Below, piece by piece: positions 1-20,115 of a DNA stretch of 64,000 nucleotides. Below the pieces are notes generated by a model. It made no database searches. It was not told the origin of the DNA and worked only from the letters and a program-made list of their open reading frames with translations. The position numbers were made by a program, and so were the translations under genes. Within the stretch, counting starts at the first letter, position 1. Each line of letters begins with the position of its first letter. Origin of the DNA: Aquisphaera giovannonii (lineage in GTDB: Bacteria > Planctomycetota > Planctomycetia > Isosphaerales > Isosphaeraceae); NCBI RefSeq assembly GCF_008087625.1, contig NZ_CP042997.1:5270001-5334000 (forward strand), in the 5' to 3' direction.

Positions 1-238
1 CCTGACACCGATTACCCCACGACGTCGATCCTCTCGAGGGCCTGGGCGCATCGATCTACGACACAAGCCCATGCAGATTCTGCTTTTGTGGATTACTCAG
101 AATTAGCTTGAGGCAGAACAACGTGTTTGATAAAGATACATTGAGTCACCACGTCCGGTGCTTGACGGTGAAATCCTCGACCGCACGAGAATGACGGATA
201 CTCTGCCGGTTGCCCTTAACACAAACATTTTGAAATGA

Positions 239-2128: not shown

Positions 2129-2133
2129 CGAAG

Positions 2134-2162
2134 TTGACACATTGACCAAGCGTCCCTAATGC
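2134..2162 (+). promoter_or_regulatory. Possible sigma70-type promoter
   Basis: TTGACA at 2134-2139, 17-bp spacer, TAATGC at 2157-2162. It lies just upstream of the YidD-like gene. The leader would be very short, so the assignment is tentative. Confidence 0.3.
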
Positions 2163-2177
2163 CTGGGGAGTGTGAGG

Positions 2178-2678
2178 ATGCCCAAAAGAGTTCGGAAGAT
2201 CGTGTCCCAAGTCCTCTGGCCAATCGACCGCGCATTGGCGCTCGTGGCCTACCTGGGTGTCGCGATGTATCGTCACTGGCTCTCGCCCAGGAAAGGATTC
2301 GCATGCGCTCACGGCGCATTGACTCGTGAACCAAGTTGCTCGGAAGTGGCCGCTAAGGCTCTCTTGACGACAACCCTCTCTCAATCCATCCCCGTCATCA
2401 ATGAGCAGTTCGAGCAATGCCGACATACATATAGAGCGTACAAAAGCGATTTGCTCGGAAGTGCTAATGATCATCTTGCACAGTTTAGCACGCTTGCGAC
2501 CGTTGGTGTCCTCGGCTGCTGCGGAGGTGGTGGGGGTGGAGGAGGTGGTGGTGGCGGGCCTTTGTTCGCCCCCAACGAGGCGACCTTCGTGGCGAACGCT
2601 GGTCAGCCTCATCCGGCGGGGATTGTTCCACCCGCTTCTTTTGATGAGCCAGAACGATCCGCATCCGATCAAGTGTGA
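2178..2678 (+). CDS. YidD-like protein with poly-glycine tail
   Basis: 166 aa from the ATG at 2178, chosen because GGGGAG at 2165-2170 sits 7 nt upstream; a GTG two codons earlier is less well placed. Residues about 18-58 resemble YidD (membrane protein insertion efficiency factor): a hydrophobic helix (ALALVAYLGVAMYRHW), then LSP, then Cys and a PSCSEVAAKAL motif matching the family PTCSxYAxxAL. YidD is normally only 70-100 aa and helps YidC-dependent insertion at the inner membrane. Here the family part is followed by a helical stretch and then LGCC and about 12 consecutive Gly (near 117-130), with a Pro/Ala-rich end. The long Gly run and low-complexity tail are not typical. It lies between an exported protein and the 592-aa gene in the same low-GC block. 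Confidence 0.6.
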   Translation: MPKRVRKIVSQVLWPIDRALALVAYLGVAMYRHWLSPRKGFACAHGALTREPSCSEVAAKALLTTTLSQSIPVINEQFEQCRHTYRAYKSDLLGSANDHLAQFSTLATVGVLGCCGGGGGGGGGGGGPLFAPNEATFVANAGQPHPAGIVPPASFDEPERSASDQV

Positions 2679-2721
2679 CGATATCCCATTCGCCGCCTAG
2701 ATCCGGCCCGGGACGGGTGAT

Positions 2722-4500
2722 TTGAGAGATCATATATTGATCGACTCAGTATTCGAGAGGCTGACCGACGCGGATAATTTCCGCGATTTCGGCTACGATG
2801 AGCTTTGTGGGCTGGCTGGCCAATGGATCGAGTCCGTCCATCGCAAGATTTCCGATCCAGGGTTCAATCTCACGACTGCTGAGAGCGACTTGGACCGCTT
2901 GAAGCAATTCTTCGCGTGCCGGCATTTTGCCGAATTCCGCGCGAGGATTAGATCGCGAACATCCTTCCAAGCGGCACTGGTTGAGCTATTCCTTCAAGGC
3001 CGCATTCGCTCGTATGTCCTCGCCTATCTGAGCGTTCAGGAAGGAGAGGACTTCGAGGGTGCCGACGGTTACGACACTCACATTCCACTGTTCATTTCCC
3101 AATTGTTGCGTAACCTTGGTCGAGTCTCACTCTGTTCGTTGAACCTCCCACTCTGGAAGCTTAATGTTCACATTGATATTGATCCACTTGTGAATCTAAG
3201 AAGTTTGTATTCCCTTCTCCTTTTTGGTCATCGAGGCCGCAAGACTTCGCTCGTGACTCGCGCCGGAATCGCATGGCAACGCCTTGTGTTTCAATTGAAG
3301 GCAAAGCTTGTTTCGGCAGTTATGAGGATGACGCTATGGCGGACAATCGGACGCCGCCAGAATGACGGTTTCATTCGGCTACTACGATTCCCGGGCGTCC
3401 GTCGCCTTCTCGCCGTCGCCATCTTGGTCCTATTCCCTTCAGCACACGAGTTGACGGAACCAGAATGGCTGAGTCTCCTGAACCGTATTGAGGATTATTT
3501 TGTACGGCGTCTTAACGATTTGACGGCGGCGCTACCGGAGCAGTCGCTTAGCAATCATGGAGTCATCAAGCTCGTCAAGGTTGCTTTCGGCACAATCGTT
3601 GGCCGAGTCTCGGTACGCGACGCTCATGAAGCGAACAACAGTGAGTTTATATTTAATACTTTTAGAATTGCCTATTGTTGGGGAATCACATATCCTTTGG
3701 TAGACAATGTGCTCGACAGTTCCTCGACAGTGCAAGCCGTTCGCGAACAACTTACGCTCGCTCTGACGAACATTTTTAACAGCGAAAAAAGCACCGCGTG
3801 TTCGGGGTTGGCCGATGAGGGCTGTGATCCAGGTGTTCGGGAGGTGTCCGAGAGATTGAGGGAGGCTCTCTCCCTTGTCCCATCTGCCCGTCTTAAGGCG
3901 GCCAGGAGTTTGCTTGGAAATCTGCTCGAATCACACCGGAGAGATTCTCGGAGACGGATTTCGACAATCGGATTGAGCACCGAGGAATCTGTGCGATCCG
4001 AAGTGATGATTGATACCGCGCTAAAATCGGCGCTCGTGCGGCTGGCCACTATGGAGTTGTGTGGAATCGAAGTTGAGGAACTTACAATCTCTGGCTGCCT
4101 CGTTCGCTCTCTATTCAACCAACTCGGCGATGATCTTTGGGACATTTACGAAGATGCTGATGACGACCGCGTCACGCCTTATACGCTGTTCTTGTTGAAT
4201 GGGGGCGGAGGGAATCCATTCGACTTCTACTTCCGATATACGGCGTTCATGACCGATGGCTTTTCAAGGCGACGTCGGACTGCGGCATTAATGGGTTTTT
4301 GCGAAACGCTCCGCGATTCGCTTCTTTCTCTCCGCGATCGTCCAGAAGATTCGCTCGATGTTGCAGGGAACATTGCGGGTCTCATTGAACGCGCGAAGCA
4401 GCAGTCGGCATCAAACTTCGTGCAGGAGGTTCCGCATGTAGATTTCGACGCGGTACTCTTCGCGTTTGAAAAAGCGATGCTTGAACTTCTACCTTCTTGA
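2722..4500 (+). CDS. Putative class I isoprenoid synthase-like protein
   Basis: 592 aa from a TTG codon; no better start is obvious. The protein is mostly alpha-helical with a few hydrophobic helices (RRLLAVAILVLFP near 228). Two acidic motifs stand out: YPLVDNVLDSS with Asp328 and Asp332, and QLGDDLWDIYEDADDD with Asp470, Asp471 and Asp474. A first DxxxD after a YxLVD turn and a second DDxxD about 140 residues later, followed by a TPYT segment, is the layout of class I (trans-type) isoprenoid/terpene synthases, in which these Asp bind Mg-diphosphate. The length is greater than usual (300-400 aa), so an N-terminal extension of about 230 aa would need explaining. This is a motif-based suggestion; the protein is otherwise unrecognised. 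GC is near half, well below the flanking genes. Confidence 0.45.
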   Translation: MRDHILIDSVFERLTDADNFRDFGYDELCGLAGQWIESVHRKISDPGFNLTTAESDLDRLKQFFACRHFAEFRARIRSRTSFQAALVELFLQGRIRSYVLAYLSVQEGEDFEGADGYDTHIPLFISQLLRNLGRVSLCSLNLPLWKLNVHIDIDPLVNLRSLYSLLLFGHRGRKTSLVTRAGIAWQRLVFQLKAKLVSAVMRMTLWRTIGRRQNDGFIRLLRFPGVRRLLAVAILVLFPSAHELTEPEWLSLLNRIEDYFVRRLNDLTAALPEQSLSNHGVIKLVKVAFGTIVGRVSVRDAHEANNSEFIFNTFRIAYCWGITYPLVDNVLDSSSTVQAVREQLTLALTNIFNSEKSTACSGLADEGCDPGVREVSERLREALSLVPSARLKAARSLLGNLLESHRRDSRRRISTIGLSTEESVRSEVMIDTALKSALVRLATMELCGIEVEELTISGCLVRSLFNQLGDDLWDIYEDADDDRVTPYTLFLLNGGGGNPFDFYFRYTAFMTDGFSRRRRTAALMGFCETLRDSLLSLRDRPEDSLDVAGNIAGLIERAKQQSASNFVQEVPHVDFDAVLFAFEKAMLELLPS

Positions 4501-4558
4501 CTGGCCGGGTTCATTCCGTGCCGGGAATTACTTACTGCTATCAGCCGCAAAATATAAA

Positions 4559-4882
4559 ATGAACACTCAATTGCTGCATAATGAAACACCTGTCAGGGAC
4601 GGTGCCGCCAACCTTCAGCGCGGTGTCGAGACAGTAGGCGGGTGGCTGTTTCTCACGGATCAGCGTTTGATCTTTGAGCCCCACTCGCGGAACGTCCAGA
4701 AGCAAGTTGAGGTCGTCAACCTCTCCGACGTTGCGTTTGTGCATCCTGCATGGACACTGTTTTTTGGACTTGTTCCGCTTTTTCCTAACTCAATCCTTCT
4801 TTCTAGCAAGCGAGGTGCGGATCTTCGCTTCACGGTTTCCAACAAGACGGCTTGGATCGAGGCGATTCAGGGACTGCTATAG
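4559..4882 (+). CDS. GRAM/PH-like domain protein
   Basis: 107 aa from the ATG at 4559; the frame is open further upstream but that would overlap the preceding gene and add unlikely sequence. The pattern GGWLFLTDQRLIFEP, then a VEVVNLSDVAFV strand, a hydrophobic turn, LLSSKRGADLRFTVSNKTAWIEAI matches bacterial GRAM/PH-like folds (strand-rich barrel closed by a C-terminal helix beginning at the conserved Trp). Such domains often bind lipids or act as adaptor modules. It follows the 592-aa gene by about 60 bp on the same strand and shares its low GC, so the two may be co-transcribed. Confidence 0.55.
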   Translation: MNTQLLHNETPVRDGAANLQRGVETVGGWLFLTDQRLIFEPHSRNVQKQVEVVNLSDVAFVHPAWTLFFGLVPLFPNSILLSSKRGADLRFTVSNKTAWIEAIQGLL

Positions 4883-4916
4883 ATGTTGCCTTTGATTTAG
4901 TCATCGAACTGAATCA

Positions 4917-4990
4917 CCCGAACACCTGGGTCAAATGCCTTTGGGGTCAGAATGACCTCGGGGTCAGGTCAGAATGCCCTCGGGGCAAGA
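4917..4990. repeat. Short GGGGTCA repeat tract, left part
   Basis: Imperfect direct repeats built on GGGGTCAGAATGACC and CTCGGGGTCAGGTC variants (GGGTCAAATG, GGGGTCAG, CGGGGTCAGG, CGGGGCAAG). After the IS66 element is removed, this stretch is only about 100 bp from the tract at 7701-7910, so the two probably formed one repeat-rich intergenic region. Confidence 0.6.
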
Positions 4991-5025
4991 CAAGGGTGTA
5001 GGCAAGGCTAGGGTGTGAGCAACCG

Positions 5026-5033
5026 ATATCAGA
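5026..5033. repeat. IS66 target-site duplication, left copy
   Basis: ATATCAGA directly abuts the left terminal repeat and is repeated exactly at 7677-7684. Eight base pairs is the duplication size of the IS66 family. Confidence 0.92.
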
Positions 5034-5114
5034 GTAAGCGCTCGGTAAAACCATCCTTGCCAGGTCGGCTATCGTCGTGGGTTGGTCCCGAAGTACCGAC
5101 CCCGGAGATAGCCC

Positions 5115-5477
5115 ATGGCACGACCTAGAGATCCTCAGCTCGAGCGGACCTGGAGCCGCCGCCTGGAGAGGCACGGCGTCAGCGGCCTGTCGATCGCCGA
5201 GTTCTGCGAGCGGGAAGGCCTCGCGCCGGCCTCGTTCTACTACTGGCGGCGGCGGCTCGCGGCCGGGGCGACGCCCCCGGCCCAGGCCCCGCCCCTGTTC
5301 GTCCCGCTCCGCCTCGATGGCCCGCGAGGCCGCGACGGGGCGCCCGCCGCACGACCCTTCGAGATCGAGCTGCCCGCGGGCGTCCGCCTCCGCCTCGACG
5401 CCCCGCCGGAGCCGGAGTGGATCGGCCGCCTGGTCGCCGCGGTCGCCGGCCTCGAGGCCGGGAGGGGCGGCCCGTGA
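5115..5477 (+). CDS. tnpA: IS66 TnpA-type helix-turn-helix protein
   Basis: 120 aa. The first 50 residues contain a clear HTH (GLSIAEFCEREGLAPASFYY) followed by WRRRL, the pattern of IS66 orf1/TnpA proteins, which act with TnpB and TnpC in transposition by an unresolved role, probably DNA binding. The rest is Ala/Pro-rich and ends near a strand-rich stretch (FEIELPAGVRLRLD). The start ATG lies 80 bp inside the left terminal repeat. Its stop overlaps the start of the next gene by 4 bp (GTGA), indicating translational coupling. Confidence 0.9.
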   Translation: MARPRDPQLERTWSRRLERHGVSGLSIAEFCEREGLAPASFYYWRRRLAAGATPPAQAPPLFVPLRLDGPRGRDGAPAARPFEIELPAGVRLRLDAPPEPEWIGRLVAAVAGLEAGRGGP

Positions 5478-5824
5478 TCACCCTCCCGCCGACCTCCCGC
5501 GCCTTCCTCTGCACCAGGCCCGTCGACATGCGCAAGGGCTTCGACGGCCTCTCCGGCCTCGTCCGCTCGTGCTTCGCCGAGGACCTCCTCAGCGGCCACC
5601 TCTTCCTCTTCGTCAACCGCCGCGGCGACCGCCTCAAGGCCCTCTACTTCGACCGCGACGGCCTGGCCGTCTGGTACAAGCGGCTCGAGGCCGGCACCTT
5701 CCAGGTCCCCCCCTCCGCCGGCTCCGAGGGCATCGAGCTGGAGCCCGCCCAGCTCGCCATGATCCTCTCCGGCGTCGACCTCTCCACCGCCCGCCGCCGC
5801 AAGCGATTCCGCGCCGCATCCTGA
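5474..5824 (+). CDS. tnpB: IS66 Orf2/TnpB-type accessory protein
   Basis: 116 aa from the GTG at 5474, whose GTGA overlaps the tnpA stop. The sequence shows the IS66 Orf2 signature: an N-terminal PVDMRKGFDGLSGLV, then GHLFLFVNRRGDRLKALYFDRDGLAVWYKRLEAG. The family is small (about 115 aa), needed for efficient transposition, and of unknown biochemical activity. An upstream in-frame GTG/ATG would extend into tnpA and is less likely than the coupled start. Confidence 0.93.
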   Translation: MITLPPTSRAFLCTRPVDMRKGFDGLSGLVRSCFAEDLLSGHLFLFVNRRGDRLKALYFDRDGLAVWYKRLEAGTFQVPPSAGSEGIELEPAQLAMILSGVDLSTARRRKRFRAAS

Positions 5825-5882
5825 CGCCGCGGATCCCGGGCACGGACGCCCCGCGACGCTTGATTGTCGTGAAAATATCGAT

Positions 5883-7580
5883 ATGATTGACGGCATGAGC
5901 GACGCCCCTCTCATCCCCATCCCCGACGACCCCGAGGAGTGCCGGCGGCTGCTCCTGGAGTCGCTCCGCCGCATCGGCGAGCTGGAGCGCGTCCTCGACG
6001 CGACCGCCGCCGACTACGGCGACCTGCAGCGGAGGTACGCCGAGCAGGCCGAGTCGCTCGCGCTGCTGCGCCGCTACCTCTTCGGCCCCCGGCGCGAGCG
6101 CGTCGCCGACGACCCCGGCCAGGGGCACCTGTTCGGCCTCGGCGACGCCGCGATCGAGCGGGACTCCCTCGACGCCCCCGAGCCCGATGGGCCCGCGGCG
6201 GGCGAGCCCGCGACGAAGGCCCCGCGCCGGCCCCGGCCGTCGAGGCCGCGGGCCTCGCTGGATCACCTCCCGCACGTCCGCATCGAGCACGACCTGCCCG
6301 AGGCCGAGAAGTCCTGCCCCTGCTTCGGCGGCATGAAGCGGCGGATCGGCGAGGACACCTCCCGCGAGCTGGAGTTCATCCCCGCGAAGCTCGAGGTCCG
6401 CGTCCACGTCCTGCCCAAGTACGCCTGCCCGAGGTGCAAGGGCGGCGTGGCCGCCCCGCCGGTCCCGACCAAGCCCGTCCCCGGGGGCATCGCCGGGGCC
6501 GGCCTGGTCTCGTTCGTCCTGGTCAGCAAGTTCGCCGACCACCTGCCGTTATACAGGCTCGAAGATATCCTGTTTCGACACGGCGTCGCCCTGTCGCGGG
6601 GCACGCTCTGCGACTGGGTCCGCAACGCCGCCGACCTGCTCCGCCCGCTGGCCGACCTCCAGCGCGAGCGGGTCCTCGGCACCGACCTGATCTGGACCGA
6701 CGACACCTTCGTGACGGCGCTGGGCGGCGACAGGCCCGGCAGCACGAAGGCGTGGTTCTGGGCCTACATCGGCGGGGCCGAGGCGCCGTACGCCGTCTAC
6801 GACTTCACCATGAGCCGCGAGCGGGACGGGCCGGCGACGTTCCTGAAGGGTTATCGGGGCTACCTCCAGGCCGACGCCTACGGCGGCTACGACGGCATCT
6901 ACGCGGGCTCCGACGGGGCGATCGCGGAGGTCGCCTGCTGGGCCCACGCGCGGCGGAAGTTCTTCGAGGCGCGATCCAATGCGCCGGCAGAGGCCAACCG
7001 CATCCTCGAGTGGGTCCGCCGGCTCTACGACATCGAGGACCGGGGCCGCGAGCTGGCGGCCGAGGATCGCCGCTCGCTGCGACGGCGGGAGTCGGTGCCG
7101 ATCCTCGACCGGATCGAGGCGTACGTCGACGAGCTGAGGCCGCGGGCGCTGCCGAAGTCGGCGCTGGGCAAGGCGCTGACCTACGCGCGGAACCAGCGGG
7201 CGGCGCTGCGGCGGTACGTCGAGGACGGCCGGCTGACGATCGACAACAACGCGTCGGAGCGGGTGCTGAGGTTGCAGGCGATCGGGCGGAAGAACTGGCT
7301 GTTCCTGGGGAGCGAGGCGGCGGGCCCTCGCGCGGCGGTGCTGTTCACGATCCTGGCCGGCGCGAAGCGGCATCGGCTGGAGCCGTGGGCCTACCTGCGC
7401 GAGGTGCTCCTGCACCTGGCCGCCGGCGAGGCCGACCTGGAGTCGCTGCTGCCGGACCGCTGGGCGGCGGCCCACCCGGAGCACGTGCTGGAGCACCGGC
7501 TGGAGGAGTCGCGGCAGCGTGCGGCGCGACAGAAGGCCATCCGCGACCGCCGCCGCGCCGGCCGACCTCGCCGCGACTGA
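5883..7580 (+). CDS. tnpC: IS66 family DDE transposase
   Basis: 565 aa. In order: an N-terminal coiled coil (SLRRIGELERVLDATAADYG to about residue 60) with the LRRYLFGPRRE motif, a linker, a zinc-finger-like region near 140-180 (KSCPCFGGM ... YACPRCKGG), and the DDE domain. Catalytic candidates are Asp in WTDDTF, Asp in QADAYGGYDG and Glu in NNASERVLR; the WAHARRKFFEA and GRKNWLFLGSEAAG blocks are typical. The first zinc-finger half reads CPCF rather than the usual CPxCG, a small deviation. It is the DNA strand-transfer enzyme of the element and cuts at the GTAAGCG ends. Confidence 0.95.
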   Translation: MIDGMSDAPLIPIPDDPEECRRLLLESLRRIGELERVLDATAADYGDLQRRYAEQAESLALLRRYLFGPRRERVADDPGQGHLFGLGDAAIERDSLDAPEPDGPAAGEPATKAPRRPRPSRPRASLDHLPHVRIEHDLPEAEKSCPCFGGMKRRIGEDTSRELEFIPAKLEVRVHVLPKYACPRCKGGVAAPPVPTKPVPGGIAGAGLVSFVLVSKFADHLPLYRLEDILFRHGVALSRGTLCDWVRNAADLLRPLADLQRERVLGTDLIWTDDTFVTALGGDRPGSTKAWFWAYIGGAEAPYAVYDFTMSRERDGPATFLKGYRGYLQADAYGGYDGIYAGSDGAIAEVACWAHARRKFFEARSNAPAEANRILEWVRRLYDIEDRGRELAAEDRRSLRRRESVPILDRIEAYVDELRPRALPKSALGKALTYARNQRAALRRYVEDGRLTIDNNASERVLRLQAIGRKNWLFLGSEAAGPRAAVLFTILAGAKRHRLEPWAYLREVLLHLAAGEADLESLLPDRWAAAHPEHVLEHRLEESRQRAARQKAIRDRRRAGRPRRD

Positions 7581-7676
7581 GCCGGCCCCGGCGATGCCCA
7601 CACGGGAGCCGCCTCGCCCTCACACCCCGCCGGGGTGCCCCCCCCGCGCCCGGGCCTGGGACGGCCGAGCGCTTAC

Positions 7677-7684
7677 ATATCAGA
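7677..7684. repeat. IS66 target-site duplication, right copy
   Basis: ATATCAGA immediately after the right terminal repeat, identical to 5026-5033. Confidence 0.92.
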
Positions 7685-7700
7685 GGATTGCGAACTTGAG

Positions 7701-7910
7701 GGAAGCCAACGGGGAAGCCAACGGGGAAGCCAACGGGGTCAGGGGAAGCCAACGGGGCAGGGGAAGCCAACGGAGGCCAACGGGGTCATTCTGCGGAAGC
7801 CAACGGGGTCATTCGGGTCACCAACTGGGTCATTCGGGTCATTCTGCCAACTGGGTCATTCGGGAACTGGGTCATTCGGGTCATTCTGGTTCTCCACTGC
7901 GGTTTGGGAA
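7701..7910. repeat. Tandem short-repeat tract, 12-bp and 9-bp units
   Basis: Begins with three exact copies of a 12-bp unit GGAAGCCAACGG (7701-7712, 7713-7724, 7725-7736), continues with spaced variants, then changes to a 9-bp theme GGGTCATTC alternating with CCAACTGGGTCATTC. All six frames read as low-complexity peptide and there is no plausible gene from 7685 to 8042. It looks like an intergenic variable-number tract rather than CRISPR, since there are no unique spacers of constant length. Confidence 0.8.
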
Positions 7911-8042
7911 ATCTGGGTAAATCACTCGTTGCCCACGGAGGCAAACCAAGAGTCATCAAGGGCTTCCTGATCCCCCGCGGCGTGTTGGGCGTTGTGGAGC
8001 AGTCCCTGGGCGGTCCAGCCCTCTGATCCCATCGTTCTGGCA

Positions 8043-8663
8043 TCACGGCTCCGGCGACTCGGGCCGCCGGGGGAGCAGGTCGGCGATGGGGAGGCGGGCG
8101 ACGACGGCCCCGTCCAGCACGAGCTCGGCGGACTCGTCCTCGGCGAGGATCGCGGGGGTGTCATACCGGCCTGCGGCCTCGGGGCCCCGGGCGAGGGTGT
8201 GGACCTCCAGGAGCCGGCGGTTCAGGTCCAGGATCCCGTACACCGGGATGCCCGCCGCCGCGTATCCCTTCGGCTTCTTCGTCCGGTCCTGCGCCGAGGT
8301 GTCGCAGACCTCGACCACGAGGGCCAGATCCCCGGGGGCGGGTCGACGGGCCTCGTATCGCCGCCTGTCCCCGCGTGCCACCGTCACGTCGGGCTCCGGC
8401 CGCCAGCGCCCCCAGGAGGCGATCGACTTCTCCTCCCGCACGTGATAGCCGGCCGGCAACACGGCCTTGAGCGCATCGGCGACCGCACCCACCGCGAAAT
8501 CATGCGGCGGGTTCTTCGTCACCTCGTAGACCTCACCGTCCAGGAGCTCGACGTGCCGCCCCTCGAACAGGCCGGCGTCCAGCATCCGTTCGAACTCGGC
8601 CGCCGAGAACCGCACCCGGCCGCCTCGGGGCGATGCCGCGGCCTGCCCGATCGTCGTCGCCAT
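8043..8663 (-). CDS. Uma2 family (DUF820) PD-(D/E)xK protein
   Basis: 206 aa. The start is the ATG at 8663; the frame is open further upstream but the extension is low-complexity. Uma2 features: N-terminal RFSAAEFERMLDAGLFEGRH with HVELLDGEVYEV, then RPEPDVTVARG (Asp of the nuclease core), ALVVEVCDTS (Glu), and KKPKGYAAAGIPVYGILDL (Lys and the conserved AxxGIPxYxIxD). The family has a restriction-endonuclease-like fold and is expanded in Cyanobacteria and Planctomycetota; its substrate is unknown. It is transcribed away from the DUF4365 gene, with about 370 bp between. Confidence 0.88.
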   Translation of the reverse strand: MATTIGQAAASPRGGRVRFSAAEFERMLDAGLFEGRHVELLDGEVYEVTKNPPHDFAVGAVADALKAVLPAGYHVREEKSIASWGRWRPEPDVTVARGDRRRYEARRPAPGDLALVVEVCDTSAQDRTKKPKGYAAAGIPVYGILDLNRRLLEVHTLARGPEAAGRYDTPAILAEDESAELVLDGAVVARLPIADLLPRRPESPEP

Positions 8664-9033
8664 CGTCGTGCCTCCGTTGCTCGCCAGGGCGCCACAGCGG
8701 CCCCGCCACGGCGAGGTATGCGACCACCACCCCAGTATCGGGCCTCGCGGGCAGACCGGCAACTGCCCTCGCGCGAAGACCTCCGCCCACTCCCACGCGG
8801 GGCCCGGAGGACGCTTCCCGCGACCGGCCAGTGGCAAGACCAGGGCAGAAGAAACGTCGGGGGCAGAGGGGACTCCGGGGTCGGATGCACCCCCGCAGGC
8901 CCTGCTTCCTGACTCCGCAGGCCTTGCAGGATCCCAGCTTGTTGCAAGGTTCCCGGGCTTCTGCTGCCAGCTTCGCCGTAAATCCGCTATGCTTTGGGAG
9001 GGCCCAGGTACCACGGCGAGCGGGTCGGTGACC
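8664..9033. other. Intergenic region between divergent genes
   Basis: No convincing gene. A TATGCT box near 8988-8993 could be a -10 element for the DUF4365 gene. Frames open through this region give low-complexity peptides. Confidence 0.4.
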
Positions 9034-9573
9034 GTGTCGAAGAAAGCCTCCCAGACGAAGATGCAGGCGGCCCGCAAGAGGCGGACGCGCGAGCACGTCA
9101 TCGAGGCCCTCAGCGTGGCGCACCTGCAGTACTTCGTCGCCAATGCGGGATTCACGATGGCGTCGTCCAAGGAGGATTACGGCTACGACCTGGTCGTCAC
9201 GACGTTCGATCGCGATGGGTACATGGACCCGATGGCCGTCTACGTCCAATTGAAGGCCTCCGAGCGCCTGACGCCTCTCGCCGACGGCGTCAGCTACTGC
9301 TTCGACCTTGACGTTCGCGACGACAATCAATGGGCGGATGAGATCAATCCGGTGTTCCTGATCCTCTATGAGGCGTCCTCGATCCGAGCCTACTGGCTCT
9401 ACTTCCAGGAATACTTGCGACAGGCGGGCGGGCCCAAGCCGAAGAAGGGCGCGAGGACGATCCGCGTCCGCGTGCCGAAGGGAAATCGGGTCAAGACGAG
9501 CTTCTTCCGGCATGCCAGGCATCTCAAGCAGAAGGTGCATGCCGAGCTGGGCGGGGGGAAGGCCGATGCTTAA
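9034..9573 (+). CDS. DUF4365 domain protein, nuclease-like
   Basis: 179 aa from the GTG at 9034; GTG 9028, ATG 8989 and ATG 9061 are alternatives in frame. The core fits DUF4365: a basic helix (KMQAARKRRTREHVIEALSVAHLQYFVANAGF), then SKEDYGYDLVV with the Asp of a PD-(D/E)xK-type site, and VYVQLKASERL with the Gln-x-Lys pair, followed by FLILYEASSIRAYWLYFQEYL. DUF4365 proteins are believed to be nuclease-like and often lie in defence or accessory loci. Its last codons overlap the next gene by 8 bp (ATGCTTAA), so the two are translated together. Confidence 0.75.
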   Translation: MSKKASQTKMQAARKRRTREHVIEALSVAHLQYFVANAGFTMASSKEDYGYDLVVTTFDRDGYMDPMAVYVQLKASERLTPLADGVSYCFDLDVRDDNQWADEINPVFLILYEASSIRAYWLYFQEYLRQAGGPKPKKGARTIRVRVPKGNRVKTSFFRHARHLKQKVHAELGGGKADA

Positions 9574-9979
9574 GACGGGGGCGACATTCGCAGAGGTGAA
9601 GGCCGCGCTGACCGAGCTGGGCTTCGGGCACCGATACACACCGAAACATGTCTTCTTCAAACACTCATCCGGCACGCCGTTCTTCGCCCTGCCACGCTAC
9701 GCGCCCGGCCAGCGCCTCAGCTCGATCCACGCGTTGATGATCCGCACTCAGCTCGAGGATGCCGGGCTGATCGAGGAGGCGGAGCCGCGGTGCCGGCCGC
9801 TCGTCGGGACGGTGCTGCAGAAGACCGGCGGCGTGGCGAAGGTGAAGGCGAAGAAGAAGGCCGGCACGCCGCCGGCAGCGGCCGGGAAGCCCGCACCGCC
9901 GAAAGCGGGCAAGAATGATGCTGGGGGGCCTGAAGGCGGCAGGAAGCCGTCCGCGACCAAGGCCAAGGCCCACGCCTGA
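9566..9979 (+). CDS. HicA-like small protein with basic tail
   Basis: 137 aa starting at ATG 9566 inside the end of the DUF4365 gene. Residues 1-75 (FAEVKAALTELGFGHRY, HVFFKHSSGTPFFALPRY, MIRTQLEDAGLI) follow the HicA/YcfA-like double-stranded-RNA-binding fold: a helix, a His-containing strand pair and a C-terminal helix. The remaining 60 residues are Lys/Ala/Pro/Gly-rich, a flexible basic tail common in nucleic-acid-binding proteins. In HicA toxins the conserved His is catalytic; here the GSH motif is replaced by PKHVFFKH, so toxin activity is uncertain. No HicB-type antitoxin follows. The overlap with the nuclease-like gene suggests a two-protein unit. Confidence 0.5.
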   Translation: MLKTGATFAEVKAALTELGFGHRYTPKHVFFKHSSGTPFFALPRYAPGQRLSSIHALMIRTQLEDAGLIEEAEPRCRPLVGTVLQKTGGVAKVKAKKKAGTPPAAAGKPAPPKAGKNDAGGPEGGRKPSATKAKAHA

Positions 9980-10044
9980 ACCGATTTCGGCTCCGGCCGC
10001 AGAATCGCCGGCGCCATGCGCGAAGGTGGCGAAGGCCCATTCCG

Positions 10045-10095
10045 CCCTCACCCCACCCCTCTCCCGCCGAGCGGGAGAGGGAGATATCTTCGCTC
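10045..10095 (+). repeat. REP-like palindrome, copy 1
   Basis: CCCTCACCCCACCCCT then CTCCCGCCGAGCGGGAG and GGAGATATCTTCGCTC. The palindrome CTCTCCCGCcgaGCGGGAGAG can form a strong hairpin. The 50-bp sequence is identical to 15460-15510. Confidence 0.85.
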
Positions 10096-10131
10096 CTCGG
10101 CCTCGGCCTCGGCCTCGGCCTCGGCCTCGGC
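10096..10131 (+). repeat. (CTCGGC)6 microsatellite
   Basis: Six exact copies of a hexanucleotide directly following REP-like copy 1. The matching position after the copy at 15460 holds unrelated sequence of similar length. Confidence 0.9.
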
Positions 10132-10290
10132 GGGCGCAACAGATCCAGCCAGCGCACTCTCGCGTCATGGCCGTCGAAAACGGCCGGTTTCCAACAACCC
10201 AGCGGGGGCGACCGATGGGCCCGGCACCGGGGCGGTGGTCCTCCTCCGTCGGGTCGGCGATGGATCGCCCCCGCGGTCCGGCGGGCCGGT

Positions 10291-10650
10291 TCACCAGCCC
10301 ATGAGGCGGACGCCCCCCGCGAGATAGGCGTGCTCGATCAGCAGATAGGCGATCGTCGCCGCCAGGAACAGCATCGCCATGGCGACGAGGTAGAGCACGA
10401 GGGCCGCCGTCGCGCCGATGCGGAGCCGCAGGCGGCGGAGGAGACGCCAGGCGCCCCAGCCCATCAGGCCGTAGAGGGCGAATCCGCCCGCCGCCAGGGC
10501 GATCAGGGTGGGCTCGCCCCGGCGCTGGTCCCGGATGTTGACCAGGGCGACGGCCACGAACAGGGCCAGCAGCCAGAGCTGCCAGACCCGGAACTGGACG
10601 GGCGTCCGCACCGGCCGGGAAGCGGCGTCGGGCGTCTCGGCGTGGGTCAT
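10291..10650 (-). CDS. Small three-helix membrane protein
   Basis: 119 aa, start ATG at 10650. Three hydrophobic segments are visible: VWQLWLLALFVAVALVNI (about 23-40), LIALAAGGFALYGLMGWGAW (about 50-69) and AALVLYLVAMAMLFLAATIAYLL (about 82-104), the last leading to a short C-terminus. Arg-rich loops (RLLRRLRLR) between helices 2 and 3 indicate the cytoplasmic side. No domain is recognised; similar CAAX-protease-adjacent or unknown small membrane proteins are common in planctomycetes. It stands alone, facing the repeat-rich region. Confidence 0.65.
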   Translation of the reverse strand: MTHAETPDAASRPVRTPVQFRVWQLWLLALFVAVALVNIRDQRRGEPTLIALAAGGFALYGLMGWGAWRLLRRLRLRIGATAALVLYLVAMAMLFLAATIAYLLIEHAYLAGGVRLMGW

Positions 10651-10910
10651 CGCGCACCTCGGATCCCCCCGCGGTGGCGATCCGGCCCATCCGGCGCGGG
10701 AGAGTCATGACAATTGTCCGAAGCGGCCCGCGTCCGGTCAAGGGGCGTCATCGCGTGATCGGACTCACCCCCACCTGTATCCCTCCGTCTTAATGAGGGG
10801 ATCGGCTCCGGCTCTCGCCGATCGTCAAGGAGAGCCCGAAGCGAGGCCAGGCCCCGCCACGGCCGGGACGGCGAAGTCATGCGGGCGATCCCGAGGCGTC
10901 GCCGGCGGAT

Positions 10911-11012
10911 GGGATGACCACCACGGATGGCGCGGATAACACGGATGGGAGTCGATCCGATGCTCCCCGCTCCGTCATCCGCGGCATCCGCGCCATCCGT
11001 GGTGGCCATCCC
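10911..11012. repeat. Long inverted repeat, CCACGGATGG type, copy A
   Basis: Left arm 10911-10937 and right arm 10986-11012 are reverse complements over 27 bp with one mismatch; the 48-bp loop contains further ACGGATGG and CATCCG units. It could form a long hairpin. Confidence 0.85.
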
Positions 11013-11786
11013 GCCTCTGGGCCGGGTCTGCTCCTCCGCCTCGGCGTCCCGCCGCGATTCCGCCACGGTCGCCCGGAGACCTCGACCAGGCGCCAGGTTG
11101 TGGTCCCGGGGATGGGGATGATGCCGGCGATCTCGACCGGCGGCCCGGACCGCGGCCGGCGACCGGGATGCGCGATCGGCCGGATCTCGGCGATGACGGC
11201 GATTCCACCGGCGACGAAATCGGAGAAATCCGCGCGTCGACGCGCGAAAACCGCCCAACATGGCGCCAGTCTCTTATATAGGGGCATCGCGGTGCGCGTC
11301 GCGCGGGGCGGCGCCGCGATCGGGGATCGTTGCGGCCGGCCGTCCCTCGCCATGCCGCTACCCGGTCGATGGCGGATGGGGCGGCGGTCGACGGGGCGGC
11401 GATCGGCCGATTTTCGGTCGTGCTCGCGAAATCGGCCGTCCCGTCGCGCGGACCATGCCGGAGAGGGCCGCCGCGCGGGCGGCGTGCGGGGGCATCGCGT
11501 GTCGATTGGCAATTCGGATGTCGGTAGCCCGGCAGGCCCGGCGCCGGCCCGCGGGCCCCGTGCGGGTCGCGGGATCGGGGATGATCGGGGGGCCGGGAAT
11601 CGGGAATCGCTCGGGAGGCTCCGGGGGTGGGCTGACGGCCCCAACGTCTCCGGCGGGGCACGCCGGAGGCGACCGGGGGGCACGAGGAGGTGTCGAAACG
11701 CGTGAAGGACGGGGGCGGCGAAGCGGGATCGTCCCGAATGCTAGAGCCCCAACTTGACACCTCGCCGGGGAATTTATGGACATGTG

Positions 11787-11808
11787 ACCACCCGCGTGAG
11801 CGGGTGGT
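11787..11808. repeat. Perfect 9-bp hairpin
   Basis: ACCACCCGC, loop GTGA, GCGGGTGGT. A compact GC hairpin without a T tract, embedded in non-coding sequence; more like a dispersed palindrome than a terminator. Confidence 0.7.
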
Positions 11809-11900
11809 TCGGACGGGCGAAGCCTCCAGCCTCCGGCGTCAGCCGGATCTGCGGGACCGGCCTCGGCCCGCGGGAGGAGCCTCGTCCTCGCCTCGGTGCC

Positions 11901-11979
11901 CGACCCTGCTTCGAAAGCTGCGCCGCAAGTCCATCCGATGGAATACCTTGACTGCGGTTTTCGATCGGCTTCGCCGCCC
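11901..11979 (+). repeat. Dispersed 78-bp repeat, forward copy
   Basis: Contains TGCTTCGAAAG, CGCCGCAAGTCC and CGGTTTTCGATCGGCTTCGC. About three quarters of its bases match the reverse complement of 12384-12461, so the two form an inverted pair around the copy-B inverted repeat. Confidence 0.75.
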
Positions 11980-11995
11980 AAGAAGCGGAGAGGAC

Positions 11996-12090
11996 CCACC
12001 ACGGATGGCACGGAGAACACGGATGGAACGCGGGCCGCCCGCGCCGATCCGTCATCCGTGCCATCCGTGCCATCCGTGCCATCCGTGGTC
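11996..12090. repeat. Inverted repeat, CCACGGATGG type, copy B
   Basis: Left arm CCACCACGGATGGCACGGA at 11996-12014; the right side is a 9-bp tandem (CATCCGTGC, four units at about 12053-12088) that is its reverse complement. Same sequence theme as copy A at 10911-11012. Confidence 0.8.
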
Positions 12091-12303
12091 GTTGAAGATG
12101 CCCGCGACGAACGGTGCCCCATCGTGGCGCCTCCCCCGCCGCAACGCCTCGGCGTGGCTCCGCTCGTCCCGCGAGCCTGGGCGACGACCGGAGCCACCGT
12201 CGGGCCGGATGGCTGCCGCGGGGTGGCCGGGACATCCTCGGCGATCGGCACGGGCCGGCACCCCGCGGGCCGGCCTCGCCTCGCCCAGGGCCACGCCGCT
12301 CCC

Positions 12304-12516
12304 GGGGCGTCGCGATGCTCCGCCCCGGCCGCCCGGGTTGCGTTCGGGAGGCAGGGGAAGGTGTGAAAAACCTCGGCGCGAGGGGGTGGCGAAGCCGTTC
12401 GAAAACCGAGGTTGGGTTGTTTCCGGATAAGGACTTGCGGCGAGACTTTCGAAGCAGGTCGTGCCGACGACTGGAGCCACGGACGGGGGCGATTGCGGCC
12501 GGGGCGTCGCGATGCT
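12304..12516 (+). repeat. Direct repeat pair of 18 bp
   Basis: GGGGCGTCGCGATGCTCC occurs at 12304-12321 and again at 12499-12516, bracketing the reverse copy of the dispersed repeat. Confidence 0.6.
12384..12461 (-). repeat. Dispersed 78-bp repeat, reverse copy
   Basis: Read on the minus strand it gives CGACCTGCTTCGAAAG, TCGCCGCAAGTCC, CGGTTTTCGAACGGCTTCGC, matching 11901-11979. Confidence 0.75.
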
Positions 12517-12759
12517 CCTCTCCCGTCATCTGGACGTCTTTATGCTCTGTGGCTGACGGGACCCGGGTCGGCTTATCGGGACCCGCAAATCGAGCCGAGC
12601 GGTCCCTCCGGTCCCCTACCTCCATCGTTGGGGAAGGTCAGGGAGGGGGGCTGCAGGGCCTTCGATCGGAGGGCGAGCCGACGATGGCGAGCGGGCCCTC
12701 GACGAGATGCCCGAGTCTTCCTCCTGTCCGAGGCGGTCGCCCCCTCTCCCTACCCCTCC

Positions 12760-12765
12760 CCCGCG
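12760..12765. repeat. IS481 target-site duplication, left copy
   Basis: CCCGCG next to the left end, repeated at 14051-14056. Confidence 0.7.
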
Positions 12766-14050
12766 TGTATGGACCGGAGACATGGGTGGCGCGCGTTCGG
12801 GGACATGGGTGACGGGTCAGTGGAGGTCATTGTGCGCCCGGAGGTCGATGCCGGCAACCCGGTGGACGCCGAAGTAGACGCCGAAGGAGCCGTCGGCGTC
12901 GGCCGGCCGCACGGCCACGCGCTCGCCGCGGAACGCCTTGCCCAGGACGGCCCGGCGGCCGCGGAAGCTGATGGTCCCGTCGCAGGCCACCTTCCGCACC
13001 GCGTCGCCGGGGCCGTACTCCCACGAGGGGGGCGCCTCGGGGTAGGGCCGCTCGCTCATGCGGTAGCGGCTCGCCGGCACCGCCAGCCCCAGCGCCTCGT
13101 GCGGCCGCCGGTGGTTGTAGGTCTCGCGCCACGCCTCGAAGCCGGACCGGCAGGCCTCCAGGTCGCGGAAGGCCCGCCCCTGGATGACCTCCGCCTTGAG
13201 GGTGCGGTGGAACCGCTCGTCCTTGCCCTGGGTCTGGGGGTGGAACGGGCGGCCGTGGCTGACGCCGACGCCCAGCCGCAGCAGCCACACCGTCAGGCCC
13301 GTGTGCCGCGCCTCGCCGCCGCAGGGGCCCCAGGGCGAGCCGTTGTCGCAGAGGATCCGCTCGGGCAGGCCGTGGGCGCGGAAGGTGGCCTCCAGGAGGC
13401 GGCGCACCGTGGCCTCGCGCTGGTCGCCGCAGGCGTAGAGGCCCACGGCGTAGCGCGAGTGGTCGTCGAGGATCGTCAGCGGGTGGCAGCGGCCGGCCCC
13501 GGCGGCGAAGTGGCCCTTGAAGTCCATCTGCCAGAGGCGGTTGGGGGCGTCGTGCTCGAAGCGCACCCAGGGCGTCGCCGCCGCGGAGGCGGCCGGGTCG
13601 AGCCGGCCGTGGCGGCGGAGGATGGCGGTGATGGTGCTGGCGGCCGGGACGGCCGCCATCCCCATGGCGGCGAGGCGGGCGCGGAGCTTGCGGCCGCCCC
13701 AGGCGGGGTGGTCGTCGCGGAGGCGCAGGACGGCGGCCTCGAGGTCCCCCGGGCAGCGGGCCGGCGAGGAGGCCGGGCGGCGGGGGCGGTCGGCCAGGGC
13801 GTCGTCGCCGCCATCGCGGTGGCGGGCGATCCACTTGTAGGCGGTCTTGGGGCTGATGGCGAAGCGGCGGCACAACTCGCGGACGTTGGCCCCCTCGGCG
13901 GCGGCCAGGGCGACGAACTCGAGGCGCTGGGACATGAGCGACACATCCTTCCAGGGCATGGCGGGCCTCCTCGTTGTGGGGCCCGCCAGGATGCCACGAT
14001 GTGTCACCCATGTCCCCGAACACCTGTTACCCATCTCCCCGGTCTATACA
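12766..14050 (-). mobile_element. IS481-type insertion element
   Basis: 1285 bp bounded by 48-bp terminal inverted repeats (12766-12813 and 14003-14050) that agree at 40 positions, including an unbroken 19-bp inner part GTTCGGGGACATGGGTGAC. The outer ends start TGTATGGACCGG and TGTATAGACCGG. A 6-bp direct repeat CCCGCG flanks the element. It contains a single full-length transposase gene and nothing else. Confidence 0.9.
12817..13959 (-). CDS. IS481-type DDE transposase
   Basis: 380 aa from ATG 13959; the longer frame would begin inside the terminal repeat. Residues about 5-60 form an HTH (RLEFVALAAAEGANVRELCR, RFAISPKTAYKWIARHR), followed by a second HTH-like segment (HPAWGGRKLRARLAAMG). 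The integrase core shows PNRLWQMDFKGHF (first Asp), LTILDDHSRYAVGLYA, ERILCDNGSPWG (second Asp) and HPQTQGKDERFHRTLKAEV (Glu of the triad). The tail WRETYNHRRPHEALGLAVPASRY is characteristic of IS481/IS3-type enzymes. No frameshift is needed, consistent with IS481 rather than IS3. Confidence 0.93.
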   Translation of the reverse strand: MPWKDVSLMSQRLEFVALAAAEGANVRELCRRFAISPKTAYKWIARHRDGGDDALADRPRRPASSPARCPGDLEAAVLRLRDDHPAWGGRKLRARLAAMGMAAVPAASTITAILRRHGRLDPAASAAATPWVRFEHDAPNRLWQMDFKGHFAAGAGRCHPLTILDDHSRYAVGLYACGDQREATVRRLLEATFRAHGLPERILCDNGSPWGPCGGEARHTGLTVWLLRLGVGVSHGRPFHPQTQGKDERFHRTLKAEVIQGRAFRDLEACRSGFEAWRETYNHRRPHEALGLAVPASRYRMSERPYPEAPPSWEYGPGDAVRKVACDGTISFRGRRAVLGKAFRGERVAVRPADADGSFGVYFGVHRVAGIDLRAHNDLH

Positions 14051-14056
14051 CCCGCG
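14051..14056. repeat. IS481 target-site duplication, right copy
   Basis: CCCGCG directly after the right end. Joining the flanks restores a C-run/G-run hairpin (CCCCTCCCCC, short loop, GGGGGGAGGGG). Confidence 0.7.
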
Positions 14057-14130
14057 GTGGGGGGAGGGGACCGGAGGGAGGCGTCCCGACTCGTGGGGGC
14101 GGACACGCTTCGTGAGGGGGAAATCGAATC

Positions 14131-14166
14131 CGGCCTCCTCCTTGACCCGAGGGGGGTGGGAGGCCG
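14131..14166 (-). terminator. Possible terminator hairpin after nagB-like gene
   Basis: CGGCCTCC (14131-14138) and GGAGGCCG (14159-14166) can pair 50 bp downstream of the nagB-like stop on the minus strand. The loop is long and no T run is present, so this is weak. Confidence 0.3.
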
Positions 14167-14216
14167 AAGGCCGGACCGGCGTGGACGCCTTCCTCGCCGG
14201 GGTCTCCTCCTGCCGG

Positions 14217-15023
14217 TCAGCTCACCAGCTTCGCCGCCTCGCGGTCGAGGTGGAGGGTGGCGGACTTGTGGCGGCGGAGGATGGAGGCGGGGCAGGACTC
14301 GGCGACCGGGCCGCGGAGGGTGTTGAGCACGGCGTCGGCCTTGCGGGGACCGGTGACGACCACGGAGAGGACCGGGGCCCGCATCAGGGCGGGGATCGTG
14401 AGGGTCAGGGCGTGGGTGGGGACGTCGTCGATGTGGCCGAAGCCGCCGTCGTGGACCTGCTGCTTGCGGCAGGCGGCGTCCAGGCGGACGGGCTTGACGA
14501 GGACCGGATCCAGGAAGTCGGCGACCGGCGGGTCGTTGAACGCGAGGTGCCCGTTCTCGCCGATCCCCGCGCAGACGATGTCCGGCGGCTCGTTCAGGAG
14601 GACCTCCTCGTATTCCAGGCAGGTCCGCAGGGGGCGGTCGGCGCGCTCGCCGGGGATGAGGCGGAGGCGGGATGCGTCCAGGCCGACGAGGCGGAAGAGG
14701 CGCTCCTGGAGGTACCGGCGGAACGAGGCGGGGTGGTCGGCCTTGAGCCCGAGGTACTCGTCCATGTGCAGGCCGACGACCCGGGACCAGTCCACGTCCT
14801 TGGCGGCGACGAGGCCGGCGAGGAAGGCGTCCTGGCTGGGCGCGGCCGCGAAGAGGACGTTGGCCCGCCCCGCCTCCTCCTGGCGGCGGCGGATCGCCCG
14901 GCCGACCTCCATGGCCGCGGCCCGGCCGGCCTGGGCCCGGTCCTCGTGGACGACGACCTGGAGGGAATCGACGGCGAATCGCGACGGCGGCTTGACGAGC
15001 AGATCGGGGCCGGGGCCGCTCAT
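14217..15023 (-). CDS. nagB: Glucosamine-6-phosphate deaminase-like protein
   Basis: 268 aa from ATG 15023, preceded by GAGGAG 8 nt upstream; a frame extension to 15062 is possible but less well supported. It belongs to the NagB/6-phosphogluconolactonase fold: VVGLHMDEYLGL (catalytic Asp of the DEY motif), FRRYLQERLF, VCAGIGENGHLAFNDPP (the active-site loop; Asn stands where E. coli NagB has Asp141, as in several other bacterial NagBs, and Asp replaces the following Glu), ALTLTIPALM and GPRKADAVLNTLRGPV with a final CPASILRRH. This combination points to deamination of glucosamine-6-phosphate to fructose-6-phosphate in amino-sugar catabolism. It stands alone between an IS element and repeats. 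Confidence 0.8.
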   Translation of the reverse strand: MSGPGPDLLVKPPSRFAVDSLQVVVHEDRAQAGRAAAMEVGRAIRRRQEEAGRANVLFAAAPSQDAFLAGLVAAKDVDWSRVVGLHMDEYLGLKADHPASFRRYLQERLFRLVGLDASRLRLIPGERADRPLRTCLEYEEVLLNEPPDIVCAGIGENGHLAFNDPPVADFLDPVLVKPVRLDAACRKQQVHDGGFGHIDDVPTHALTLTIPALMRAPVLSVVVTGPRKADAVLNTLRGPVAESCPASILRRHKSATLHLDREAAKLVS

Positions 15024-15329
15024 GGGGAGGCTCCTCAGCGGGGCCGGGTCGCGAGGAGGCATCCCCGCCCGGCCCGGTCCGCTCTCGGGTCGGCGCCAGG
15101 CCCCCTCCGCCCGGTCGGCGCAAAGGTTATCCGAACGCCCGCGGTTGTGCCATCGGGGATCGCCCCGCGGGACGGCCCGGACGCATCGGGCCCCGGGCGG
15201 GGCGGCGGGTCGAATCCGGACCGGGAGGGCGAGGCGGGCCTGTTGAAGATAGGCCGTTTCCGGCGGCGTTGTCGTGAGATCGCGACGGCCCTATCCGCTA
15301 CGCCGACCGAGGACGAGGGGCGAAGACAG

Positions 15330-15511
15330 CTCCCTCTCCCGCTCGGCGGGAGAGGGCTGGGGTGAGGGTCCTCGATCGCCGCACTTTCGCGGTGGACTCC
15401 CGATCTCGGGCTCGCTGCATTCGCGAGAGCACAAGGTCCGCGGGCGGAGGCTCAACCCGCCCTCACCCCACCCCTCTCCCGCCGAGCGGGAGAGGGAGAT
15501 ATCTTCGCTCG
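15330..15511. repeat. MITE-like element with REP-like inverted ends
   Basis: Left end 15330-15368 (CTCCCTCTCCCGCTCGGCGG ... GGGGTGAGGG) is the reverse complement of the right end 15460-15497. The 90-bp interior (TCCTCGATCGCC, TTCGCGG, GGCTCGC, GCGGAGGC) resembles, on the opposite strand, the interior at 18821-18911. That shared interior suggests one unit of about 170-180 bp that has been copied, not two independent palindromes. Confidence 0.7.
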
Positions 15512-15608
15512 CCTTCCTTTGCTTTTGCTCGCCGGCCGTGGCTGGCGCAACAGATACGCGCGGCGAGTCCGATGGCTTGCGTCCCCGAAGATCGCCTCTT
15601 TCATCCGC

Positions 15609-15646
15609 CCACCCCACCTCTCCCGCAAGTGGGCGAGGGAGAGGGA
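15609..15646 (+). repeat. REP-like palindrome, diverged copy
   Basis: CCACCCCACCTCTCCCGCaagtGGGCGAGGGAGAGGG-type palindrome with a changed loop, about 100 bp after the preceding element. Confidence 0.7.
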
Positions 15647-15866
15647 TGGCGGACCGGCCGCACAACAGATCCGGGGATAATCCACCCGGCCGATCGCCCT
15701 CTTCCCAGCACCCCAGGGCGAGGCTCCCGCCGGGCCGGGCGCGGCGGGTGAAAGGTGGATGAAGGCGGGCGGGGCGGTGTCGACAGCCGGGGCGCCGGGC
15801 CCGAGAATGGTCCGACGATCCATCGCCCCCGCCGAGGGGCCCCGAAGCCCGCGTGGAGTCCCCCCG

Positions 15867-18404: not shown

Positions 18405-18485
18405 GCCCGCATAGGCGGGGGCTTGGTCCGTCGCTAGAATCGAGGCGGTCGGGTGGTTCCTGGAGTGGAGACGAGGGGGCGGCTC

Positions 18486-18710
18486 ATGGCGACGGTGATG
18501 CAGGCACCCCGCGAGATGGTCGAGGCGGTGGCCGACCTCCGGCTGCCGCCCAAGGCCGATCGTCGGCTGCAGTCCTTGATGGATCGCAACTCCGACGGGG
18601 TCCTGACCGCCGAGGAGCGCGACGAGTTGGAGGCCCTCGTCGAGCTGAGCGAGTCGATCGCCCTCCTGCGCGCCCAGGCGTTACGCGCCCTCGGCCGTCC
18701 GCCCCGATGA
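18486..18710 (+). CDS. Small orphan antitoxin-like protein
   Basis: 74 aa from ATG 18486. The sequence (VEAVADLRLPPKADRRLQ, LMDRNSDGVLTAEERDELEA, LVELSESIALLRAQALRALG) matches a small helical protein family frequent in Cyanobacteria and Planctomycetota, often found next to a PIN or HNH-type partner. DRNSDGVLTAEE resembles an EF-hand-like loop but the context suggests a linker between helices. Here no partner gene follows: the next 200 bp are REP-like sequence and an IS110 element. A TAGAAT box at 18435-18440 could be its -10. Confidence 0.7.
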   Translation: MATVMQAPREMVEAVADLRLPPKADRRLQSLMDRNSDGVLTAEERDELEALVELSESIALLRAQALRALGRPPR

Positions 18711-18762
18711 GTTCATGGGCCGCGATCTCCTATCACAAGTCCCCAGCTCACCACGACCATGA

Positions 18763-20115
<1,353 letters not shown>

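Follow-up and report, generated by a model that had tools for sequence, protein, structure and literature searches.

A conserved, portable gene pair in planctomycetes joins a DUF4365 nuclease-family protein to an overlapping HicA-fold partner, a candidate defence unit

Introduction

What does a HicA-like gene do when the gene it overlaps encodes a DUF4365 protein? HicA is known as an RNase toxin held in check by HicB, and DUF4365 has mainly been described as the nuclease of an Argonaute system. The question arises from a pair of genes in the window, i.e., the whole 64,000-nucleotide stretch of Aquisphaera giovannonii DNA analysed here, which is part of a planctomycete genome of 10.5 Mb; the congener represented in genome collections is Aquisphaera insulae.

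The gene pair and its setting

A standalone DUF4365 gene on the plus strand (9034..9573; GTG start, 179 aa) encodes a predicted PD-(D/E)XK nuclease and is followed by a small plus-strand gene (9566..9979; 137 aa) whose ATG start lies at 9566 and whose product has a HicA-like fold. The GTG start at 9034 is conserved in A. insulae, and the DUF4365 stop codon ends at 9573. As the earlier note reported, the two genes overlap by 8 bp (9566..9573, plus strand), which read ATGCTTAA. The preceding plus-strand stretch, 8931..9033, is common to the window and A. insulae and presumably holds the promoter and leader.

A Uma2 gene (8043..8663, minus strand; PF05685, E 2.1e-20) is divergent from the pair, again as first described. 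Its proposed standing as a third related member found no support: Uma2 lies outside the block common to the window and A. insulae (8931-9983) and occupies 40 places in the window genome, and we regard it as a neighbour outside the pair unit. A Pfam search for Uma2 in seven genomes gave several hundred places and, among the matches listed, none on a contig with the pair. The expansion of the family in these genomes is very large, with the 40 places spread over contigs C1 and C3 of the window genome (G000) and 45-75 in each of six relatives in the order.

The pair locus is flanked by IS66 and rve transposase genes (Pfam). The IS66 transposase gene occupies 5883-7580, and just past its downstream end, at positions 7690-7890, lie dense degenerate direct repeats built of GGGAAGCCAACG and GGGTCATTCG units. 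The first 4,000 positions (1-4000) differ in composition, at 53-55% G+C vs about 72% elsewhere, and encode two proteins, one of 629 aa that is TPR/DUF5640-like (a weak match, under the Pfam cut-off) and one of 592 aa that has no Pfam match; this segment is probably acquired DNA.

Conservation of the pair

Searched with the small protein, 5 of the 45 genomes of the order gave a match, which overlapped a DUF4365 gene every time. A DUF4365 profile made from those five found 12 places in 7 of the 45 genomes (E <= 1e-5). Nine of them are close (E < 1e-48), and each of the nine has a small gene whose start lies within the DUF4365 stop; of the remaining places, one (L022) is a truncated frame and two (L021, L023) are longer, weaker DUF4365 genes without a HicA-like gene. 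When viral contigs were scanned with DUF4365 sequences from the nine places, a tenth pair came up, on a contig of 10 kb (L037). In all, 10 distinct places of this subfamily have downstream sequence, nine in planctomycetes of the window's order and one on the viral contig, and at each of the 10 a small HicA-like gene comes after DUF4365. In this count, repeated records of one place are taken once (e.g., L006, L002, L012 and L072 for A. insulae), L022 and the distant L024 are left out, and L019 is included, with a frame break about 50 residues into its small gene. The overlap measures 8 bp in eight pairs, 11 bp in L017 and 4 bp in L037. The claim of a conserved, translationally overlapping two-gene unit with no evident HicB is thus borne out; the pair is conserved and the small protein, rather than being found mostly alone, accompanies DUF4365 at every place.

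The association was examined from both sides. Across 37 loci, a profile of the small protein (E <= 0.01) matched only the pairs and a duplicate of the window; most pairs are rows of that profile, and the informative part of the scan is the absence of matches elsewhere. No HicA-like gene was found within about 1.5 kb of the other DUF4365 places among these loci. Conversely, 33 loci whose Pfam HicA matches are genuine or nearly so have no DUF4365 gene close by. Since both controls are negative, it is this particular subfamily of DUF4365 and this particular subfamily of HicA-like proteins that are associated. Distances between the DUF4365 proteins correlate with those between their small partners (Mantel r 0.87, n = 9 pairs, 1 of 5000 permutations as high), a correlation that shared ancestry alone explains in part.

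Apart from L024, the DUF4365 matches that 392 genomes of the phylum gave beyond the order are weaker and mostly belong to long fused frames; this search scored only about ten candidates per genome, so that absence there is weak evidence. The exception, L024 (G326 contig C104; L079 1829-3834), is a distant standalone DUF4365 gene (E 4.9e-29) beside a Mu-type portal gene. A second frame begins with a 4-bp ATGA overlap, the contig ends about 50 bases downstream, and the 18 visible residues are unlike the start of the HicA-like proteins; this DUF4365 may have a different partner.

The DUF4365 protein keeps a predicted nuclease active site

The window DUF4365 protein matches PF14280 with 60.3 bits (E 2.8e-16; cut-off 24.3) over residues 25-156 of the 180 aa scanned, its sole Pfam match. 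In PADLOC it matches PDC-M02A (1.6e-12, 45.4 bits) and Aga_REase (1.5e-11). Its AlphaFold model is poor (mean pLDDT 50), and the nuclease fold therefore rests on Pfam, PADLOC and the motif. Residues D48, D52 and Q72-x-K74 (D38, D42, Q62 and K64 in the viral-contig numbering) are invariant in 11 of 11 alignment rows, and the gene is under constraint between the window and A. insulae (dN/dS 0.22). The same QxK forms the active site of TmuRE, where a Q62A/K64A complex does not cleave DNA (PMC10810196). In this short Argonaute system, SPARDA, the DUF4365 domain is a DNase that remains inactive as long as the partner Argonaute has found no target (PMC10810196). Family and motif together predict that the window protein is a PD-(D/E)XK-type nuclease.

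The small protein has a diverged HicA fold

Because no library family matches the window small protein (Pfam, NCBIfam, or PADLOC at E up to 1), calling it HicA-like needed evidence from fold and profile. Its core, residues 1-70 (9566..9775, plus strand), is a constrained protein: window and A. insulae differ over these codons with a dN/dS of 0.097, vs 2.6 and 4.2 when the same DNA is read in the two other frames. AlphaFold models of three small-protein sequences show a confident alpha-beta-beta-beta-alpha core, with pLDDT about 90 across residues 10-70, and a low-confidence tail at about 50. The best five PDB matches in Foldseek are 1whz, itself a HicA-family protein (PMC3969222), and HicA chains, at modest E-values (0.009-0.18) that the disordered tail perhaps explains. 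In a VIA comparison the HicA family takes ranks 1-5 of 996 chains, with modest Z-scores of 6.4-7.3 and rmsd 2.1-2.3 over 56-63 aligned residues.

Profiles agree with the models. An hhalign comparison of eight small proteins (the viral one excluded) with 26 planctomycete HicA proteins gave a probability of 66 (E 7e-6), vs at most 0.4 for 30 column-permuted profiles, and of four phylum proteins weakly matched by a five-sequence profile of the small protein three are HicA_toxin according to Pfam. The viral-contig partner passes the Pfam HicA_toxin model outright (PF07927, 39.9 bits, cut-off 27) and has an intact KGSH; it alone passes among the partners scanned, and the window protein falls below the cut-off. 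By model and profile, then, the small protein has a HicA fold that has diverged.

The residues on which HicA toxicity depends have decayed in a patchy way. In Burkholderia pseudomallei HicA, G22C and H24A abolish toxicity and S23A does not (PMC3969222). The window equivalent of GSH is P-K-H, in which the Gly is lost to Pro and His28 aligns with the catalytic His of HicA; the earlier statement that the protein lacks GSH is right for the Gly and wrong for the His. The His persists in 6 of 10 partners (window, A. insulae, L016, L017, L019, L037) and is replaced by N, G, F and A in L014, L015, L018 and L020, respectively; both Gly and His remain in two, L037 and L019. Where the His is kept, as in the window protein, RNase activity may persist. 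Mapped on the tree, this pattern needs about three changes, two of them forced by well-supported branches. The alignments are most simply read as selection acting to keep the nuclease chemistry and the HicA fold, but not HicA catalysis.

Could the HicA-like protein still be an RNase toxin, with DUF4365 as its regulator, as an antitoxin in the place of HicB or as a second effector? The fold itself, the viral partner with its KGSH and the six retained His residues would fit such an arrangement. By inspection of the ORF lists around the small gene no HicB was noticed; the overlapping partner is DUF4365 in all 10 places. An antitoxin, however, would have no need of a fully invariant catalytic motif, DUF4365 acts elsewhere as an effector DNase (PMC10810196), the His has given way to N, G, F or A in four of 10 partners, and in the window a Gly required for toxicity is Pro. 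We consider a persisting toxin unlikely.

Beyond the core, a Lys/Ala/Pro-rich basic tail (9794..9976, plus strand) is present in the window protein, as the earlier note pointed out, but is apparently unconstrained: dN/dS is 1.0 from codon 77 on, and the tail occurs only in the two Aquisphaera copies. A role for it as an RNA-binding domain is unsupported at this dN/dS.

A portable cassette in varied surroundings

The window and A. insulae share the block 8931-9983 at 83.8% identity over 1058 columns (blastn), and blastn found no other similarity between window positions 1-20000 and the A. insulae locus L072. Since the two loci have only this block in common, the pair is a portable cassette of ~1.05 kb. 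In A. insulae it lies between two predicted tRNA genes. The gene upstream of that copy, which we take to be ceramidase-like, has an 83%-identical counterpart at 182 kb in the window genome, and the pair is absent from the 10-kb stretch around this counterpart (blastn).

One copy of the nine in planctomycetes resides in a recognised candidate defence operon. On contig C406 of genome G013 two genes precede the pair, one for a PDC-M02A-like DUF4365 protein and a small one that matches the beginning of PDC-M02B. All of these share a strand, with a helicase-C/NOV_C gene on one side and a DUF1156 methylase gene on the other, and PIN-domain and DUF499 genes lie further on. Of 94 neighbour proteins called, 63 were scanned with PADLOC, which finds one member each of HmaA (6.7e-89), HmaB (1.5e-138) and HmaC (1.9e-168); the Pfam domains of the C406 genes fit these three. 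The PDC-M02-like and HicA-like pairs thus stand in tandem within a single Hma-type operon (L075, about 9214-10953, minus strand). Hma, a candidate defence system, occurs in 26 phyla (PMC8565338) and was later placed among BREX-related systems, for which an anti-phage helicase and auxiliary PD-(D/E)XK nucleases are reported (PMC12839542).

This operon also suggests a restriction-like pair that acts without abortive infection: the HicA-fold protein would be a DNA-binding specificity subunit, DUF4365 would cut unmodified invading DNA, and methylation from other loci would protect the host. The copy sits between the HmaA-like helicase and HmaB-like methylase genes, and PD-(D/E)XK nucleases are auxiliary effectors of DUF499-centred systems (PMC12839542). 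Against this, no methylase was noticed beside the other planctomycete copies, as judged from the 25 commonest of 125 families; the viral contig does have a D12-type adenine methylase gene, about 2.3 kb from the pair and on the opposite strand. We hold this arrangement to be quite unlikely.

Other copies keep more ordinary company: the G032 copy adjoins a sugar-nucleotide dehydratase region, the A. insulae copy dehydrogenase and acetyltransferase genes, and the G019 copy a transcription-repair coupling factor (some of these names were read from translations). The unit is self-contained. Such surroundings, and the IS66 and rve transposase genes at the window locus, might speak for a service to the cell or to mobile elements (DNA processing or repair) in place of defence, which is very unlikely given a non-syntenic cassette sparsely present in the order (7 of 45 genomes) and the copies in the Hma operon and on the viral contig.

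What ties the pair to defence is a single operon and a single viral contig, together with the mobile distribution and the record of the families. The earlier suggestion of a toxin or defence unit accordingly gains from the Hma and viral-contig copies and loses from those among housekeeping-type genes; we infer a defence role from this balance. Searches further afield returned no additional pair. The window DUF4365 protein had no tblastn match in plasmids and phages; its homologues, used as queries, found plasmid DUF4365 proteins in part of the plasmid and phage searches, and the five plasmid regions examined hold long DUF4365 proteins, partly SPARDA-like, and no pair. The viral-contig pair had no match in E. 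coli genomes, and further viral-contig scans returned the same contig or nothing. In Streptococcus phage YS771 (L039 2926-3923), a short DUF4365-like gene with a different overlapping partner of 175 aa lies between IS200-type transposase genes.

Relation to known systems

The pair resembles several known systems in part. With the HicA of HicAB modules it shares the dsRBD-like fold and a close overlap with the partner gene, and its viral-contig partner passes the Pfam model; it differs in that the partner is a DUF4365 nuclease, the toxic Gly and His are eroded in most members, and the window small protein falls below Pfam detection. In the available text of Gerdes (2024), none of the 14 HicA contexts described includes DUF4365 or a standalone nuclease; class 14, SMC-HicA, may contain a NERD domain (PMC10865869). 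With SPARDA (TmuRE-Ago, DUF4365-APAZ) the pair has in common the DUF4365 domain with D and QxK and an effector kept with a nucleic-acid-binding partner. There, however, APAZ is fused and a short Argonaute is encoded next door, whereas the window DUF4365 stands alone, matches only PF14280 and, at 179 aa, has little room for APAZ, and its neighbour is the 137-aa HicA-fold protein.

PDC-M02, a phage-defence candidate in PADLOC, includes a DUF4365 protein, PDC-M02A; the score of the window protein against it is far below the 170 bits of the PDC-M02A-like protein of L005. As to PDC-M02B, PADLOC gave no family for the small protein of the window at E up to 1, nor for four homologues at E up to 10. 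By eye, the N-terminus of PDC-M02B resembles the helix-strands-helix arrangement of the HicA type, and relatives with which this likeness could be tested were found in 0 of 392 genomes. From Hma and related DUF499-centred BREX-related systems the window locus differs in that no Hma gene was noticed next to its pair, whereas the C406 pair is embedded in such an operon.

A search of open-licence articles in PMC found no paper with both HicA and DUF4365. A HicA domain has been validated in E. coli defence through DefensePredictor (PMC13092281). What is new here is the stable combination of two known elements, DUF4365 and the HicA fold, and in this pair the HicA fold has likely changed its role.

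Proposed mechanism

On balance we favour, with some reserve, a pair composed of a PD-(D/E)XK nuclease effector and a co-translated HicA-fold partner that binds the nuclease and/or nucleic acid, probably in defence against phages or plasmids. DUF4365 would be the effector, and the stop-start overlap would let the dsRBD-like protein be made in step with it. By binding the nuclease, nucleic acid or both, the HicA-fold protein would decide when the nuclease acts, either restraining it during normal growth or steering or activating it against foreign nucleic acid. As a result invading DNA would be destroyed, or the cell's own DNA in abortive infection. The predicted nuclease activity, a physical complex, the direction of control and the anti-phage or anti-plasmid role are the parts that we infer.

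A bolder version is tentative: the HicA fold may have been turned from a ribonuclease into a sensor or restraint of a DNA-cutting DUF4365, in a defence system undescribed in the papers searched, which would be a fifteenth HicA context, mobile enough for carriage by phages and pluggable into larger defence operons, Hma among them, as an effector cassette.

Outlook

The pair is a small, cheap and directly testable candidate defence system. A conserved and portable two-gene unit of this kind suggests that the HicA fold can partner a DNA nuclease, and it cautions that a HicA-like gene with no HicB is not necessarily an orphan toxin.
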